Positions 1,030 through 25,124 of a stretch of 49,866 bases of DNA are shown piece by piece. The notes beneath the pieces were generated by a model. That model worked only from the letters and a program-made list of their open reading frames with translations, was not told the origin of the DNA and ran no database searches. A program made the translations under genes and the position numbers. The stretch lies in the NCBI GenBank assembly GCA_014860565.1, contig JACZJN010000212.1:1-49866 (forward strand), in the 5' to 3' direction. This DNA is from Bacteroidota bacterium. GTDB taxonomy: Bacteria > Bacteroidota > Ignavibacteria > SZUA-365. Positions within the stretch are counted from its first letter, which is position 1, and every line of letters begins with the position of its first letter.

Positions 1030-3210
1030 TCAGATATCGGAATCCTCGTCAAGAAGAATGCGCATCACTTGCTGAGCCGCGCGTGAAATAATGGTGCCGG
1101 GACCAAAGACCGCCACGGCGCCATGGCGATAAAGGTAATCGTAATCCTGCACAGGGATCACGCCGCCAACAACCACAAGGATGTCGTCGCGTCCGATTTT
1201 CTGCAGTTCTTTCACGAGCGCGGGGACCAGCGTCTTGTGTCCCGCAGCGAGGCTGCTGACACCGACGATATGAACGTCGTTTTCCGCTGCCTGTCGCGCG
1301 GCTTCCTCGGGGGTCTGGAACAGCGGACCGATGTCCACATCGAATCCCAGATCCGCGAATGCCGTGGAAATGACTTTGGCTCCACGGTCATGACCGTCCT
1401 GTCCGAGTTTCGCGATCATGATGCGCGGACGACGGCCCTCTTTCTGGGCAAAGCGATCGGTCATGTTCTTGGCAGAAAGGAAGTCGCCATCTTCACCCGC
1501 TTCGCTGCTGTAGACGCCTGAGATGGAGCGAATAACGGCCTGATGCCGTCCGAACACCGATTCCATCGCATCGGACATTTCACCGAGCGTCGCGCGCTTG
1601 CGGGCAGCTTCGACACATGCGGCAAGCAGATTGCCGCTGCCGGCGGCCTCGCGTGCGATCGCTTCGAGGGCCAGCCGCACCTCGTCATCATTGCGTGTGG
1701 CGCGCAATTCGGCAAGCCGCTGTTTCTGGGCATCGAGTACGGCACTGTTGTCCACCTCGAGAATGTCGATGGGATCTTCCTTCGCCAGACGATATTTATT
1801 CACACCGACGATAGTGTCTTTCCCTGCATCGATACGTGCCTGCTTGCGCGCCGAGGCTTCCTCGATGCGCATTTTCGGAAGTCCCGTTTCGATGGCCTTG
1901 GTCATGCCGCCGAGGCCTTCGACTTCCTGAATCAACTGCCAGCCTCGCTGCGCCAATTCATGCGTGAGCCGTTCGACATAATAGGAGCCGGCCCAGGGAT
2001 CGATCGCGCGGCAGATATTGCTTTCATCCTGAATCAGGAGTTGCGTGTTGCGGGCGATGCGGGCGGAAAAATCCGTCGGCAGCGCAATCGCTTCGTCGAG
2101 CGCGTTGGTGTGCAGCGACTGCGTATGCCCCTGCGCCGCGGCCATTGCTTCGATGCATGTCCGCGCGACGTTGTTGAAGGGATCCTGCTCGGTGAGGCTC
2201 CAGCCCGATGTTTGACAGTGCGTGCGCAGCGACATGGACTTCGGATTTTTCGGATGGAACTGATGGATGAGCTTCGACCAGAGCATGCGCGCGGCACGCA
2301 TTTTCGCGATCTCCATGAAGAAATTCATGCCGATCGCCCAGAAAAATGAAAGGCGTGGCGCGAAGCGATCGATGTCGAGTCCGGCGTTTATTCCGGCCCG
2401 CACATACTCAAGCCCGTCAGCCAGGGTGTATGCCATTTCGATATCCGCCGTCGCCCCCGCTTCCTGCATATGATAGCCGGAAATCGAAATTGAATTGAAC
2501 TTTGGCATGTGCTGCGCGGTGAACGCGATGATGTCAGAGACGATACGCATGGACGCCGCAGGCGGATAGATATAGGTATTGCGAACCATGAACTCCTTGA
2601 GAATGTCGTTCTGGATGGTTCCGCTGAGCTGATCCATGGGAACGCCCTGCTCTTCCGCCGCGATGATGTACAATGCCATGATCGGGAGTACGGCGCCATT
2701 CATGGTCATCGACACCGACATCTTGTCAAGCGGAATCTGATCGAAAAGAATACGCATGTCGAGAATGGAGTCAATGGCAACGCCGGCCTTGCCCACATCA
2801 CCGACCACACGTGGATTGTCGGAGTCGTAACCGCGGTGCGTGGCTAAATCGAAGGCGATGCTCAGTCCCTTCTGTCCCGCCGCGAGATTGCGGCGATAGA
2901 ATGCGTTGGATTCCTCCGCAGTGGAGAAGCCCGCATACTGGCGTACGGTCCAGGGACGCGTCGCATACATGCTGCTGTAGGGTCCCCGCAGAAACGGCGG
3001 TATTCCGGAAACGAAATCCAGATGCTCGAGTCCTGCAATATCATTTTCGGTATAAAGAGTGCGCACCGAGATATGTTCCGGTGTGAGCCAGGTCAATTGT
3101 TCGTAATCATGCGCGGGTGCTTCGGCGCGAGCCTTCGCCTCCCATTCTTCGCGGGTGTGTTTCGCGGGACCGGAAGCGTTGAATGGTTGTGTTGTAAAAT
3201 CAGGTTTCAT
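1030..3210 (-). CDS. mutB: Methylmalonyl-CoA mutase, large (catalytic) subunit
   Basis: This is the adenosylcobalamin-dependent enzyme that interconverts (R)-methylmalonyl-CoA and succinyl-CoA in cytoplasmic propionate/odd-chain metabolism. The 726-residue length is normal for the alpha subunit. The TIM-barrel mutase domain covers about residues 40-560 and contains the substrate-binding GYHMQEAGA motif at 245-253. The C-terminal cobalamin domain (about 595-720) has the signature GQDGHDRG at 603-610, where His607 would be the lower axial cobalt ligand. The start at 3210 is supported by GAGG in the last codons of mutA, about 8 bases upstream. Only 2 bases separate the two genes, so they are translationally linked and form the heterodimer. 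A strong terminator follows. No meaB or epimerase gene is seen in the window. Confidence 0.97.
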
Positions 3211-6283: not shown

Positions 6284-8638
6284 TTATTGTGTGAGCACTG
6301 ATATTTGTTCGAGAAGTCGTTGTTTGAGGTCCTGGCGCTTCTGCGCATCGGTAAACGCCTTTCCCTCATTGTCCACCACGTAGAAGGAATCGACCACACC
6401 GTCGACCCGGGTTGCAATTTTGGCAAATACCACGTTCAATCCAAATGTGGACAATTCCGAGGCCAGCCGGTACAAAAGCCCGAATGTATCCGGGGCATAC
6501 ACTTCCACAATGGTCTGTTCTCTGCCGTCGGCAGAGTAATGCGGAAGATAGGCGACGTCTACCATGACATGACGCTTCGGAAGCTTCCGGAGTTTGCGCA
6601 CCCATTTGCGCCGGTAGCGTTCGAAAAGCTGCTCTGCATCCAATTCCCCTGCGCAGACGGATTGTATCATTTGCTTGAGCAACAGCGACTGTTCGCTACG
6701 GAGATGTTTCCCGCTGAAGATATCCACGACGCGAAATGTATCGATTACGACGTCATTATGCGTGTCTATGGAAGCATCGACGATGCTGCAGTCAGCACCG
6801 AACAACGCCGCGGAGAACTGCGCGAGCAGTTGCGGACGATCAAGGCAGAAAACGGACACTTCGCTGTAAGCCCGGTGATGCTGCAGGTGAATGCGAACAC
6901 GCTGTCCATCGAGAACATCATGGATAGCCGCGAAATATTCTTTCTGACTCAGGGCCGACTCCGGCCCCGCTTCCTCAATCTGCTGCTGCATCAATCCCGT
7001 ATCCCCCAGTTCGAGTACGTGGCGCACCGTATCGTACAATTCGCGCAGCAATTCGCGCTTCCAATCAGTCAGAATGCCGGGATTGAGCGCCGACATATCA
7101 GCGAGCGTGAGAAGGTACAGAAGATTCAGACGCTCCACCGTTCTTATCCGTTGAATGAAGGGCTGCAGTGTGGTAAGCTCGCGTATGTTGCGCCGGAAAG
7201 CCAACTGTTCCATGCTCAGATGCTCCCGAACGAGGAAAGAAACCAGTTCGCCAATTTCCATACGACCAAAGCGACGCATAATATCGGGTGCCAGATCGGC
7301 GCCGACATATTCATGGCGCGGGAGATCAATCGGTTTGGCGATGTCGTGGAGAAGTACCGCATAATAGAGAACGGAAACATCTTTTAATTCAGCAAGAACA
7401 CGTGCACTATGTTCATGCTCCCGCAAAGACGTTTCACACGCGTGAATAGCGCGAAGCGTATGCTCATCTGCAGTGTAGAAATGGTATACGTTATGCTGGA
7501 AAAAATGCTCCAACGCTGCAAATTCAGGAAGAACAAGGCTGAGCACGCCGAGTTCATGCATTGCCTTGAGCGTATCGGCGACATGATGCTGCTCTCTGAG
7601 AATGAAGTCGAATAAGCGTAGAGCTCCCGGCCCCGGTTTAATATCCCGGACATAGGAGAGCGCTCGGATGAACTCCCCGCCTGGATAACACTGCTTGCGT
7701 GCCATCTCAAGAAACAACTGCATTATGGAAATATCGTCAAGCTCGGAAATATCCTCCGGCAGCAGCAGCTGAGATGCATCCCCTGCTTGTTCCATTCCCT
7801 GTTTCTTTTTCTGATCGTAGAATACGAGTTGCAGAGCTATGTGTACCGTACGAGCATGCCGGTAATACTCGCGCATAAACTGTTCCACGCCTTTTTTCGC
7901 GTTTTTCTCATCGAAGCCAAGCACTTCCGCCACTTGGCGCTGAAGATCGTAATCGAGAGAATCGTGAAGATGACCGCTCAGCATATGCATTTTTTCTCTT
8001 ACACGAAGAAGAAATTCATACGCCTCGAGTAATGCTTCTCGACGTTCAGGCATCAGACTGAGGCTTCCGAGGACCCGACGTACGTCTGGCCAGGGATCCG
8101 TACAGACGGGAATTTCCGCGAGAAGTTCGAGCAGGGTCAGATAATAGACCGTATGGACATCTCGCAGCGTCCCTGCACTGTTTTTTACATTCGGTTCCAG
8201 CAATGCCACGGCATTTCCATACTGCTCGTAGCGGTTTTCCGTAAGCTTTTCAAGTGAATCGATGATGAACGATTTTTTTCTCATCGCCCCTTCTCGGACC
8301 GTCTGGCGAAAAAAACAGTACACCTCTTCGTTTCCTGCAAGAAATACCGCATCCATCTGAGCAACCCATGACCGGATATCCGTTTCCAGCATGGATGCTA
8401 TATCGTCCAGAGAACGCACGGAAATGCTTGCATGCTCAATCGCAGCAGTGAGAATGCTCAAAATATCATCGCTGCGGCTCGATGTTTCGTATCCATCTCC
8501 ATGGATAAGCAGCATGTCCATGTCAGAAAAAAGCGTTTCCTCATTCCTCGCGACACTGCCGCTGACGCAAAGGCAGAAACCCCGAGAGGTCCACTCGGTC
8601 ATCCACACCTGCATTGCTTTTTTCTTTCTGTCACTCAC
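6284..8638 (-). CDS. glnD: Protein-PII uridylyltransferase / uridylyl-removing enzyme
   Basis: GlnD senses glutamine and adds or removes UMP on PII proteins, controlling nitrogen assimilation. The 784 residues show the full family layout. The N-terminal nucleotidyltransferase motif SGSVARNEETLFSDMD lies at 26-41, with metal-binding Asp39 and Asp41. A central HD phosphohydrolase domain has LLHDIAKP near 430. Two C-terminal ACT domains lie at about 587-660 and 707-784. It is somewhat shorter than the E. coli protein (about 890). The start is a GTG at 8638, preceded by AAGGAAGGCGG. It lies downstream of dnaA but behind that gene's terminator, so it likely has its own promoter in 8640-8870. No glnB or glnA is in the window. 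Confidence 0.95.
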   Translation of the reverse strand: MSDRKKKAMQVWMTEWTSRGFCLCVSGSVARNEETLFSDMDMLLIHGDGYETSSRSDDILSILTAAIEHASISVRSLDDIASMLETDIRSWVAQMDAVFLAGNEEVYCFFRQTVREGAMRKKSFIIDSLEKLTENRYEQYGNAVALLEPNVKNSAGTLRDVHTVYYLTLLELLAEIPVCTDPWPDVRRVLGSLSLMPERREALLEAYEFLLRVREKMHMLSGHLHDSLDYDLQRQVAEVLGFDEKNAKKGVEQFMREYYRHARTVHIALQLVFYDQKKKQGMEQAGDASQLLLPEDISELDDISIMQLFLEMARKQCYPGGEFIRALSYVRDIKPGPGALRLFDFILREQHHVADTLKAMHELGVLSLVLPEFAALEHFFQHNVYHFYTADEHTLRAIHACETSLREHEHSARVLAELKDVSVLYYAVLLHDIAKPIDLPRHEYVGADLAPDIMRRFGRMEIGELVSFLVREHLSMEQLAFRRNIRELTTLQPFIQRIRTVERLNLLYLLTLADMSALNPGILTDWKRELLRELYDTVRHVLELGDTGLMQQQIEEAGPESALSQKEYFAAIHDVLDGQRVRIHLQHHRAYSEVSVFCLDRPQLLAQFSAALFGADCSIVDASIDTHNDVVIDTFRVVDIFSGKHLRSEQSLLLKQMIQSVCAGELDAEQLFERYRRKWVRKLRKLPKRHVMVDVAYLPHYSADGREQTIVEVYAPDTFGLLYRLASELSTFGLNVVFAKIATRVDGVVDSFYVVDNEGKAFTDAQKRQDLKQRLLEQISVLTQ

Positions 8639-8949
8639 GCCTTCCGCCTTCCTTGCTCTTCACTTGCCAATGATATTAACAAGGTTCTGATATAATGATA
8701 ATACTTATTGTTATTGAAAATGTGGATATGTGGATAACTTCAAAATTTCAGTCGCAGGTATTGAAAAGAAATGACTTCTGCCGAAGGCACCTGAAGAAAA
8801 ACTTCATGTTCGGCGAATGTTGGCAGCGTGTGTGAAAAAAAATATGGACATGCTGTCCGGAATGTCCCGTCGAAAAAAAAGCGGCCAGTCGTTCATTACC
8901 GGCCGCCCTGACACATTGTACACAGATGTTTTCCACATATGTGTATGAG
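8639..8949. promoter_or_regulatory. dnaA-glnD intergenic region with DnaA boxes
   Basis: This gene-free stretch of about 310 bases lies between the dnaA stop and the glnD start. It contains an exact DnaA box (complement of TTATCCACA) at 8729-8737. An abutting one-mismatch box (ATATCCACA on the minus strand) covers 8721-8729. A TTTTCCACA box lies at 8929-8937. An AT-rich run (8675-8725) adjoins the first pair. The dnaA terminator sits in the middle. The region may be one half of a bipartite origin, and also holds the glnD promoter (inference). Confidence 0.6.
8873..8907 (-). terminator. Intrinsic terminator after dnaA
   Basis: On the minus strand GCGGCC...GGCCGC forms a GC-rich stem (8881-8886 with 8901-8906, extendable to 9 pairs through GGT/ACT with a G·T wobble). 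An 8-base T-run (complement of 8873-8880) follows at once. It lies about 45 bases after the dnaA stop and separates dnaA from glnD. Confidence 0.85.
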
Positions 8950-10371
8950 CTATCTCGCGATGTAGGAAATCTGCTTTTGGAGTTGTTCCACGCGACTGCG
9001 CAGATCGTCGTCGTTCTCTATGTTCGCCGCGACGGTCTTGCATGCGTGAATAATGGTGCTGTGATCCCTGCCGCCAAAATGCAGACCGATCGTCTTGAGA
9101 GAGGCGCGCGTGAGGTTTTTGGCCAGATACATCGCAACCTGACGCGGAAGAACGATTTCCTGCTTTCGTGTTTTAGCGCGAAGTGAATTTTCGGGCACTT
9201 TGAAATGATCCGCGACCAGTTTCTGTATCTGCTCCACGGTCAGATCCTTTTTATCGGAAGAAATGACGTGTCGCAAAACCCGTTCGGCGAGAGCGACGTC
9301 GAGGGGACGCTGTTCGAGCGTATGCCTTGCAATCAATCCGATGTAGCAACCTTCAAGTTCTCTGATATTGGATTTCACATTCGAAGCGATGAATTCAATG
9401 ACGTCCTGCGGCAGATCGATGTGGTCTCCTTCCGCCTTCTTGCGCAGAATGGCTATGCGCGTTTCCAGATCAGGCGGTTGCACGTCGACAGTGAGACCGC
9501 ACTGAAAGCGGGATATCAGACGCTCATCAAGGCCTACGAGATCTTTCGGAGGTCGGTCGGATGAGAGAATTATCTGTTTTTTCAGCTGATGGAGAGTGTT
9601 GAAGGTATGGAAAAACGTGTCCTGCGTCCGTTCCTTTCCAGAGAAGAACTGAATATCATCGACGATAAGTACATCCATGTTCCGGTAGAAATTCGAAAAC
9701 TCGATAGTGTTGTTGCGCTCGATGGCATCGACAAAATCGATAGTGAATTTCTCGCTGCTGACGTAGTAGACCCGTTTGCCCGGGTTCGTGTACGACACAT
9801 GGTTGCCAATGGCCTGGATCAAGTGGGTTTTTCCAAGACCGACGCCGCCATACAGCACCAGCGGATTGAAGGCGGTCTCACCAGCATTGTTGGCCACATT
9901 CAGCGCAGCGGCGCGGGCAAACTGATTGCCGTCGCCGCGGATGAAACTCTCGAAAGTAAATTTCGGGTTGAGATTGCTTACGAACGGTTCGCGAACATAC
10001 ACAGGAGTAGGGAGTCCGTTTCTTTCACGGCTTTGCGAAACCGATGGTGAGCCCACCGGATACGGATTGCTTTCAACGGAAAAGGAAAGCTGCTCCTGCT
10101 TGGGAACCTTCACTGCATATTGAAGTGAAGAATCAGGACCGAGAACCTTGCGCAATGACGCCTGAAGCAGATCGAAATAATGCTCCTCAAGCCACTCATA
10201 AAAATACGTGCTTGGTACCTCCACTGTGAGCAGCCCATCATTGAGAGTGGAGGGAATGATGGGTTCAAACCAGGTACTGTATGTCAGAGGCTTGACCTGC
10301 GGTCGAATCAGTTCAAGGCAGTCTTTCCAGGCGACAACGGCGGATTTGCCGGTTTCAACATTCATTGGCAT
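8950..10371 (-). CDS. dnaA: Chromosomal replication initiator protein DnaA
   Basis: DnaA binds DnaA boxes at oriC, melts the origin and loads the helicase. The 473-residue protein shows domain I (1-95), a linker, and the AAA+ core. Walker A GGVGLGKT is at 175-182 and Walker B VLIVDDIQFF near 234-243. The C-terminal DNA-binding signature DHSTIIHACKTV starts at 436. The start is MPMNVETG at 10371; a second ATG 6 bases further is an alternative. An exact DnaA box (TTATTCACA) ends 14 bases upstream of the start codon, implying autoregulation. Unlike the common order, dnaN does not follow; glnD lies downstream after a terminator. Confidence 0.98.
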   Translation of the reverse strand: MPMNVETGKSAVVAWKDCLELIRPQVKPLTYSTWFEPIIPSTLNDGLLTVEVPSTYFYEWLEEHYFDLLQASLRKVLGPDSSLQYAVKVPKQEQLSFSVESNPYPVGSPSVSQSRERNGLPTPVYVREPFVSNLNPKFTFESFIRGDGNQFARAAALNVANNAGETAFNPLVLYGGVGLGKTHLIQAIGNHVSYTNPGKRVYYVSSEKFTIDFVDAIERNNTIEFSNFYRNMDVLIVDDIQFFSGKERTQDTFFHTFNTLHQLKKQIILSSDRPPKDLVGLDERLISRFQCGLTVDVQPPDLETRIAILRKKAEGDHIDLPQDVIEFIASNVKSNIRELEGCYIGLIARHTLEQRPLDVALAERVLRHVISSDKKDLTVEQIQKLVADHFKVPENSLRAKTRKQEIVLPRQVAMYLAKNLTRASLKTIGLHFGGRDHSTIIHACKTVAANIENDDDLRSRVEQLQKQISYIAR

Positions 10372-10843
10372 TGAAGTTATTCACAGATGACAACATTTTG
10401 CAGAAAAAAAAGGGCGGTTGCGCAGATTATGGAAAAAGATAAAATAAGCCCGCGGAATACAGCCCAAAAAACGGCCAAATCCTTTTAATAAAACAGCTTA
10501 GAAAAAGATCACAAGAAGATGTGTCGCAAGTGACGGAAGAGAATAGAACCGTCAGAATCCAACCAATCTCTATCTGGTATTTTGGAATTATCTTATCCAC
10601 AACTTATTCACAGCGCCGGCGGCTGTGATGACGCTGAGTAGTATAGACACGGAAAAGATGATTTTCAATACGCAAAAAAACGCTTCCGCACTTGACTTTT
10701 TCAAAGTACGGAAGCTGTAAGGACTTATGGGAGAATAATTTTTTCAGTTTTTTTTTGACTGCTTTTTGCAGTCTGAACACGATCCGGTCTCGGACCGCGG
10801 CCGCACTGCCGGATGCATCACTGACTTGATTTTAAGGGGTTCT
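10372..10843. other. Candidate oriC / dnaA upstream region
   Basis: This gene-free region lies between divergently transcribed dnaA and the rightward genes. It has three exact DnaA boxes on the plus strand: TTATTCACA at 10377-10385, TTATCCACA at 10593-10601 and TTATTCACA at 10604-10612. The last two are separated by only 2 bases. A/T-rich tracts occur at 10404-10412, 10433-10446, 10465-10510 and especially 10733-10760, which could serve as an unwinding element. An imperfect hairpin (GCTTCCG...CGGAAGC, about 10682-10714) and a 6-bp hairpin near 10758-10774 are also present. The combination is typical of an origin, but boxes beside dnaA can also serve only autoregulation. Confidence 0.6.
10593..10612 (+). 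promoter_or_regulatory. Tandem DnaA boxes
   Basis: Two exact TTATNCACA boxes (10593-10601 and 10604-10612) lie in the same orientation with a 2-base spacer. Such close, same-strand pairs are a hallmark of ordered DnaA assembly at origins. Confidence 0.75.
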
Positions 10844-25105: not shown

Positions 25106-25124
25106 CGTATGTGGATAACATACG
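25106..25124. promoter_or_regulatory. Palindrome containing a DnaA-box sequence
   Basis: CGTATGT (25106-25112) and ACATACG (25118-25124) form a perfect 7-bp inverted repeat around GGATA. The complement of 25110-25118 is exactly TTATCCACA. It lies 16-34 bases upstream of the FN3 lipoprotein start and may be an operator; the DnaA match may be chance. Confidence 0.4.

Follow-up and report, generated by a model that had tools for sequence, protein, structure and literature searches.

A probable bipartite chromosomal origin around dnaA in an uncultured Ignavibacteria-like lineage

Described origins and the dnaA locus

The bipartite chromosomal origins of Bacillus subtilis, Helicobacter pylori and Clostridioides difficile carry clusters of DnaA boxes on both sides of dnaA and have their unwinding element in the intergenic region 3' of the gene, where boxes lead into AT-rich DNA (PMC8235120, PMC7561715), and the locus considered here resembles them in both respects. 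In Escherichia coli, DnaA prefers box pairs 2-3 bp apart, with one bound site at dnaA itself (PMC11317965). For the basal unwinding system (BUS), distances from box to first DnaA-trio peak at 10-13 bp (PMC8287927).

The window, meaning the whole stretch of DNA analysed (49.9 kb, contig C72), belongs to a genome of 4.75 Mb that is distributed over 223 unordered contigs and is 97.8% complete. Its DnaA is complete, with N-terminal, AAA+ and helix-turn-helix domains all present (Pfam), and its entire length can be aligned to B. subtilis DnaA (8btg). Because the nearest relatives of this protein come from metagenome genomes under the name Bacteroidetes bacterium SZUA-365 and from uncultured Ignavibacteria bacteria, the source is assigned to an uncultured, Ignavibacteria-like lineage within the Bacteroidota group. 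Neither Rfam families nor tRNAs were found in the window. The features around dnaA are as follows.

8660..8728, no strand: predicted DNA unwinding element, AT-rich, marked by duplex instability, with the cumulative GC-skew minimum at 8668
8691..8720, minus strand: 3-nt spacer (8718-8720) and DnaA-trio-like tract, degenerate here; the trio-bearing strand is plus
8721..8737, minus strand: two DnaA boxes sharing one base, TTATCCACATATCCACA, in an 8-bp register; core of oriC2
8831..8839, minus strand: weaker DnaA box TTTTTCACA, which several relatives also have at about +110 from the stop
8878..8909, minus strand: predicted intrinsic terminator of dnaA, with a stem of 12 pairs and a T run
8916-8924 (+), 8929-8937 (+, TTTTCCACA) and 8940-8948 (-): weaker DnaA boxes at the stop codon of dnaA, of which those at +13 and +26 recur in the family
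8950..10371, minus strand: dnaA, replication initiator (Pfam Bac_DnaA, Bac_DnaA_C, DnaA_N)
10377..10385, plus strand: exact DnaA box beside the dnaA start codon, conserved in the family
10593..10612, plus strand: tandem DnaA box pair with 2-bp spacing, the single such pair in the genome
10640..10668, minus strand: predicted dnaA promoter TTGAAA-17-TATACT, sigma-70-like, 10/12 consensus positions

Box clusters and GC skew

An initial annotation had proposed exact TTATNCACA boxes on both sides of dnaA, and four are present, at 8729-8737 (-), 10377-10385 (+), 10593-10601 (+) and 10604-10612 (+), together with the one-mismatch neighbour it had mentioned (8721-8729 (-), ATATCCACA) and its TTTTCCACA box (8929-8937 (+)). 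These four, out of six exact boxes in the window, compare with 0.04 expected in the two intergenic regions beside dnaA (P <= 2e-4, dinucleotide shuffles); for the 3' intergenic region alone, the same kind of shuffle gives P = 0.027 for exact boxes. DnaA-box clusters are found on both sides of dnaA, and the boxes hold their positions across the family. The AT-rich tracts were likewise correctly recognised, with 24-34% GC at 8650-8749 versus 57% overall. Genes had been read as running leftward on the left and rightward on the right; the former stands, and the latter extends over about four genes (10.9-14.0 kb) before the strand flips. Away from the origin region, isolated exact boxes occur in the window at 1796-1804 (+) and 25110-25118 (-).

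Since the contigs of the window's genome are unordered, whole-genome skew was taken from a complete relative of the same family, G007 (single contig, 5.24 Mb, sampled at 20 kb per 65 kb), which shares with the window the gene order mutB-mutA-murI-glnD-dnaA / LytR_C-rsfS-argS-omp-ppiD. This check, suggested by the initial annotation, returned one clear V with its minimum after the 3.51-Mb sample and its maximum after the 0.91-Mb sample; this maximum is roughly half a chromosome away from dnaA, which is at 3.568 Mb. At base resolution (3.43-3.68 Mb scanned) the minimum falls at 3569711, approximately 38 bp beyond the 3' box pair. Corresponding minima lie 11 bp beyond this pair in G001 (20669; 35.8 kb scanned) and approximately 32 bp beyond it in G005 (41668; 80 kb scanned), and agreement in G004 holds only within +/-10 kb. 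In G152, a complete genome from another family of the class that was sampled from position 1 to 1.58 Mb, a local minimum at 1202330 lies 58 bp beyond the pair, with 15/15 samples negative left of 1.17 Mb and 5/5 positive right of 1.23 Mb.

In the window itself, where a minimum had been expected at about 8.7-10.8 kb, it was located at 8668, 53 bp beyond the pair, although its amplitude is small, and codon-position skew within the window, including that at third positions, is mixed. The window's skew alone would not prove an origin, and a skew minimum beside dnaA is present in G007, G001, G005 and G152 and weak in the window. The switch between dnaA and glnD does not arise from a change of coding strand, because both genes run in the same direction.

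The boxes might instead regulate transcription of dnaA (perhaps also glnD) only, the origin lying elsewhere. DnaA boxes are indeed common at dnaA promoters and the contigs of the home genome do not yield a whole-genome skew curve, but skew minima in the sequences of four relatives, synteny with G007 and the unique conserved 3' element render this reading very improbable. The evidence for the location of the origin is strong, and the proposal of a bipartite oriC around dnaA is supported by skew in G007, G001, G005 and G152 and by family-wide box positions. We assign a probability of roughly 0.85 to the locus being the chromosomal origin, bipartite around dnaA, with opening on the 3' side and tuning or looping on the 5' side.

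The two sides of dnaA

The core of the origin is the 3' side, at 8660-8737, where the elements on the dnaA strand run in the order stop codon, approximately 213 bp, TTATCCACATATCCACA, 3-nt spacer, trio-like tract and AT-rich DNA. The position of the overlapping pair, approximately 213 bp after the dnaA stop, is conserved both within the family and more widely in the class, the family member G006 having a poor copy with four mismatches. The 17-mer at 8721-8737 is single-copy in the 4.75-Mb genome, even with one mismatch allowed. On a 60-bp scale the lowest duplex stability of the whole window is at 8669-8728, and its least stable 100-bp DNA is likewise at the 8660-8728 element, with the pair (8721-8737) near this AT-rich DNA (8660-8728) and oriented towards it. 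Unwinding most likely takes place on this 3' side, at the overlapping pair.

The trio-like tract has the family consensus (C/T)TAATAA(T/C)AAT, the complementary strand reading as 3'-GAT/TAT-5' units with the first trio 11 nt from the first box; trio orientation was inferred from the trios of C. difficile and from 5'-tail scaffolds (PMC8287927, PMC7561715). Its three-base periodicity is seen across 29 class loci, with summed trio runs of 126 vs 72.5 +/- 6.9 in shuffles. Under the BUS rule of at least three consecutive NAN trios no more than 16 nt from a box, 23/29 class loci qualify when the second box is taken as reference. In the window, where the tract reads TCA ATA ACA ATA ..., middle bases have been lost and the longest run is 1, so that the window is described as BUS-like rather than as a BUS member.

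On the 5' side, the arrangement TTATNCACA-N0-4-TTATNCACA is found in the 4.75-Mb genome only as the tandem pair at 10593-10612. Both this double box and the box at 10377-10385 point away from dnaA, and 214-218 bp separate them in most family members. The double box lies approximately 20-40 bp into the predicted dnaA transcript, the predicted promoter being conserved in the alignment of relatives. As a co-oriented pair 2 bp apart, it conforms to the E. coli-type double-box rule of co-oriented boxes with 2-3 bp between them; the 3' pair at 8721-8737, with its overlap of 1 bp, does not. Its promoter-adjacent position and E. coli-like 2-bp spacing suggest that the 5' cluster would be well placed for dnaA autoregulation. 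The GAGTAGTATAGA string (~10634-10645) beside the 5' pair was considered as a set of DnaA-trios and rejected, both for lying on the wrong strand for the box orientation and for overlapping the sequence complementary to the -10 hexamer predicted for dnaA. Further upstream, at 10690-10730, a strongly conserved TTGA(C/T)TTTTTCAAAGTA string precedes the divergent gene and is perhaps its promoter or a site for another protein.

Unwinding on the 5' side (AT-rich 10350-10760), with the 3' side as auxiliary, would accord with three exact boxes against one on the 3' side and with AT-rich flanks. Such a reading is nevertheless unlikely, given that skew minima and duplex stability favour the 3' side and that the TAGTAT string by the 5' pair, complementary to the predicted -10 hexamer, lies on the strand opposite to that needed for trios. 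A more substantial, if still doubtful, alternative is a monopartite origin confined to the 3' intergenic region, in which the 5' boxes would be a dnaA autoregulatory operator with no role in initiation. The double box does lie just downstream of the conserved predicted dnaA promoter, and its 2-bp gap is that of the regulatory double boxes in E. coli, which include one at dnaA (PMC11317965); the trio-like tract and least stable DNA occur on the 3' side only. Yet the 5' boxes keep their 214-218-bp spacing, opening in C. difficile needs both sides (PMC7561715), and regulatory and origin roles of such boxes can coexist.

The bipartite reading therefore stands in refined form, with opening placed at the 3' overlapping pair, while the 5' pair may regulate dnaA. 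That pair might serve as oriC1, in autoregulation or in both, and it may, as its counterpart in C. difficile does (PMC7561715), act as a functional second part of oriC.

From the computed location, conservation, element order and duplex instability of the preferred bipartite origin, we infer a course of DnaA binding, unwinding, looping and autoregulation. DnaA would fill the boxes 3' of dnaA, pass from the overlapping pair (8721-8737) onto the trio-like tract (plus strand, ~8691-8717) and open the AT-rich element at ~8660-8720, whereupon helicase loading would come next and forks would depart both ways. At 10593-10612 and 10377-10385, DnaA would tune dnaA transcription and so set the DnaA level, and the 5' complex would probably contact or tether the 3' complex with dnaA looped out between them, a configuration described for Bacillus, Helicobacter and Clostridioides.

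Conservation, neighbouring genes and a second box locus

Across the class, the pattern TTATCMACATATCMACA is present in 35/294 genomes; it lies on the dnaA strand ~165-280 bp past dnaA in 24 of these 35, elsewhere in six, and is unplaced in five. When degenerate forms are counted, 22/29 loci match better than shuffles (p < 0.01). Ignavibacteriales carry AT-shifted versions of the pair at +201 to +230 in 3/5 loci, and Bacteroidia loci yielded chance-level matches to the pair only. Among the six genomes with the pattern elsewhere is G127, in which TTATCAACATATCCACA has 13 copies that seem to belong to a dispersed repeat.

Of 11 actinobacterial loci of Microbacteriaceae type gathered by DnaA similarity (L027-L033, L035-L037, L041), 10 have TTATCCACATATCCAC(A/C), with at most two mismatches, 170-184 bp past dnaA. 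A conserved GTTAAgACGATTA-like string follows the actinobacterial pair. This likeness may stem from either descent or convergence. A tentative proposal is that TTATC(C/A)ACATATC(C/A)ACA, lying 3' of dnaA and before the trio-like tract, could be an ancient initiator platform of at least the Bacteroidota group and Actinobacteria. On this proposal the two boxes of the pair could not be filled in the usual double-box register, so that DnaA might use them alternately or in an uncharacterised geometry for single-strand handover. Within the literature searched, the 17-mer was not found, and mentions of overlapping DnaA boxes there used the term in other senses only.

The unusual gene order reported in the initial annotation was reproduced, in that glnD (6284-8638) directly follows dnaA and the sole dnaN found in the genome is on contig C136. 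In many other class members dnaN directly follows dnaA across the same intergenic element; glnD takes its place in the window's family and in two members of the order. Because glnD occupies dnaN's place beyond the same element, the origin kept its place at dnaA when dnaN departed.

A second conserved DnaA-box locus, TTATCCACA-N12-TTATCCACA in a 21-bp register, was observed between guaB and a pepQ-like aminopeptidase gene.

G000 C80:11087-11116 (L211): second DnaA-box locus; relatives L212-L219

A third exact box lies 94-129 bp upstream. The locus occurs once per genome in 11/12 family genomes, its flanking sequence is not conserved, and the N12 pair is found anywhere in only 7/282 other class genomes. 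In G007 the guaB/pepQ-like locus is ~1.83 Mb from the origin. It may serve to titrate DnaA or as a regulatory site. For E. coli, binding of DnaA inside guaB has been both reported and disputed (PMC11317965).

Comparison with known origins

Altogether, the replication origin of an uncultured lineage is placed to within ~60 bp, with its anatomy, which enables metagenome growth-rate estimates from coverage slopes as well as a direct unwinding test. The locus also shows the persistence of the origin beside dnaA after the loss of dnaN from this position. The overlapping pair recurs at the equivalent position in another phylum, against the E. coli spacing rule, which makes DnaA loading from it directly testable.

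Relative to the bipartite oriCs of B. subtilis, H. pylori and C. difficile, the window has fewer exact boxes, its boxes on the side of the unwinding element overlap by one base, and looping is predicted; in B. subtilis and C. difficile, moreover, dnaN follows dnaA where the window has glnD. The predicted oriC of Melioribacter roseus (Ignavibacteria) is similarly intergenic, directly 3' of dnaA and at a GC-skew transition, but has dnaN after dnaA (PMC3534657); the searched text of that source makes no bipartite or BUS claim for it.

The likeness to the BUS (PMC6669920, PMC8287927, PMC10721633) comprises a co-oriented box pair, a short spacer, a trio-like tract and AT-rich DNA, and the 11 nt from first box to first trio fall inside the published 10-13 peak (PMC8287927). 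Unlike the BUS, the window has its pair in an 8-bp register and its trios are degenerate, though good in several relatives. The 5' pair resembles the double DnaA boxes of E. coli, including one at dnaA (PMC11317965), in being co-oriented, 2 bp apart and promoter-adjacent; in E. coli, however, dnaA lies away from oriC (PMC8287927), whereas the window's double box is inside the origin locus. The unusual feature is the overlapping pair, which does not keep to the 2-3 bp that E. coli DnaA prefers between boxes, and the origin is otherwise of a known type.
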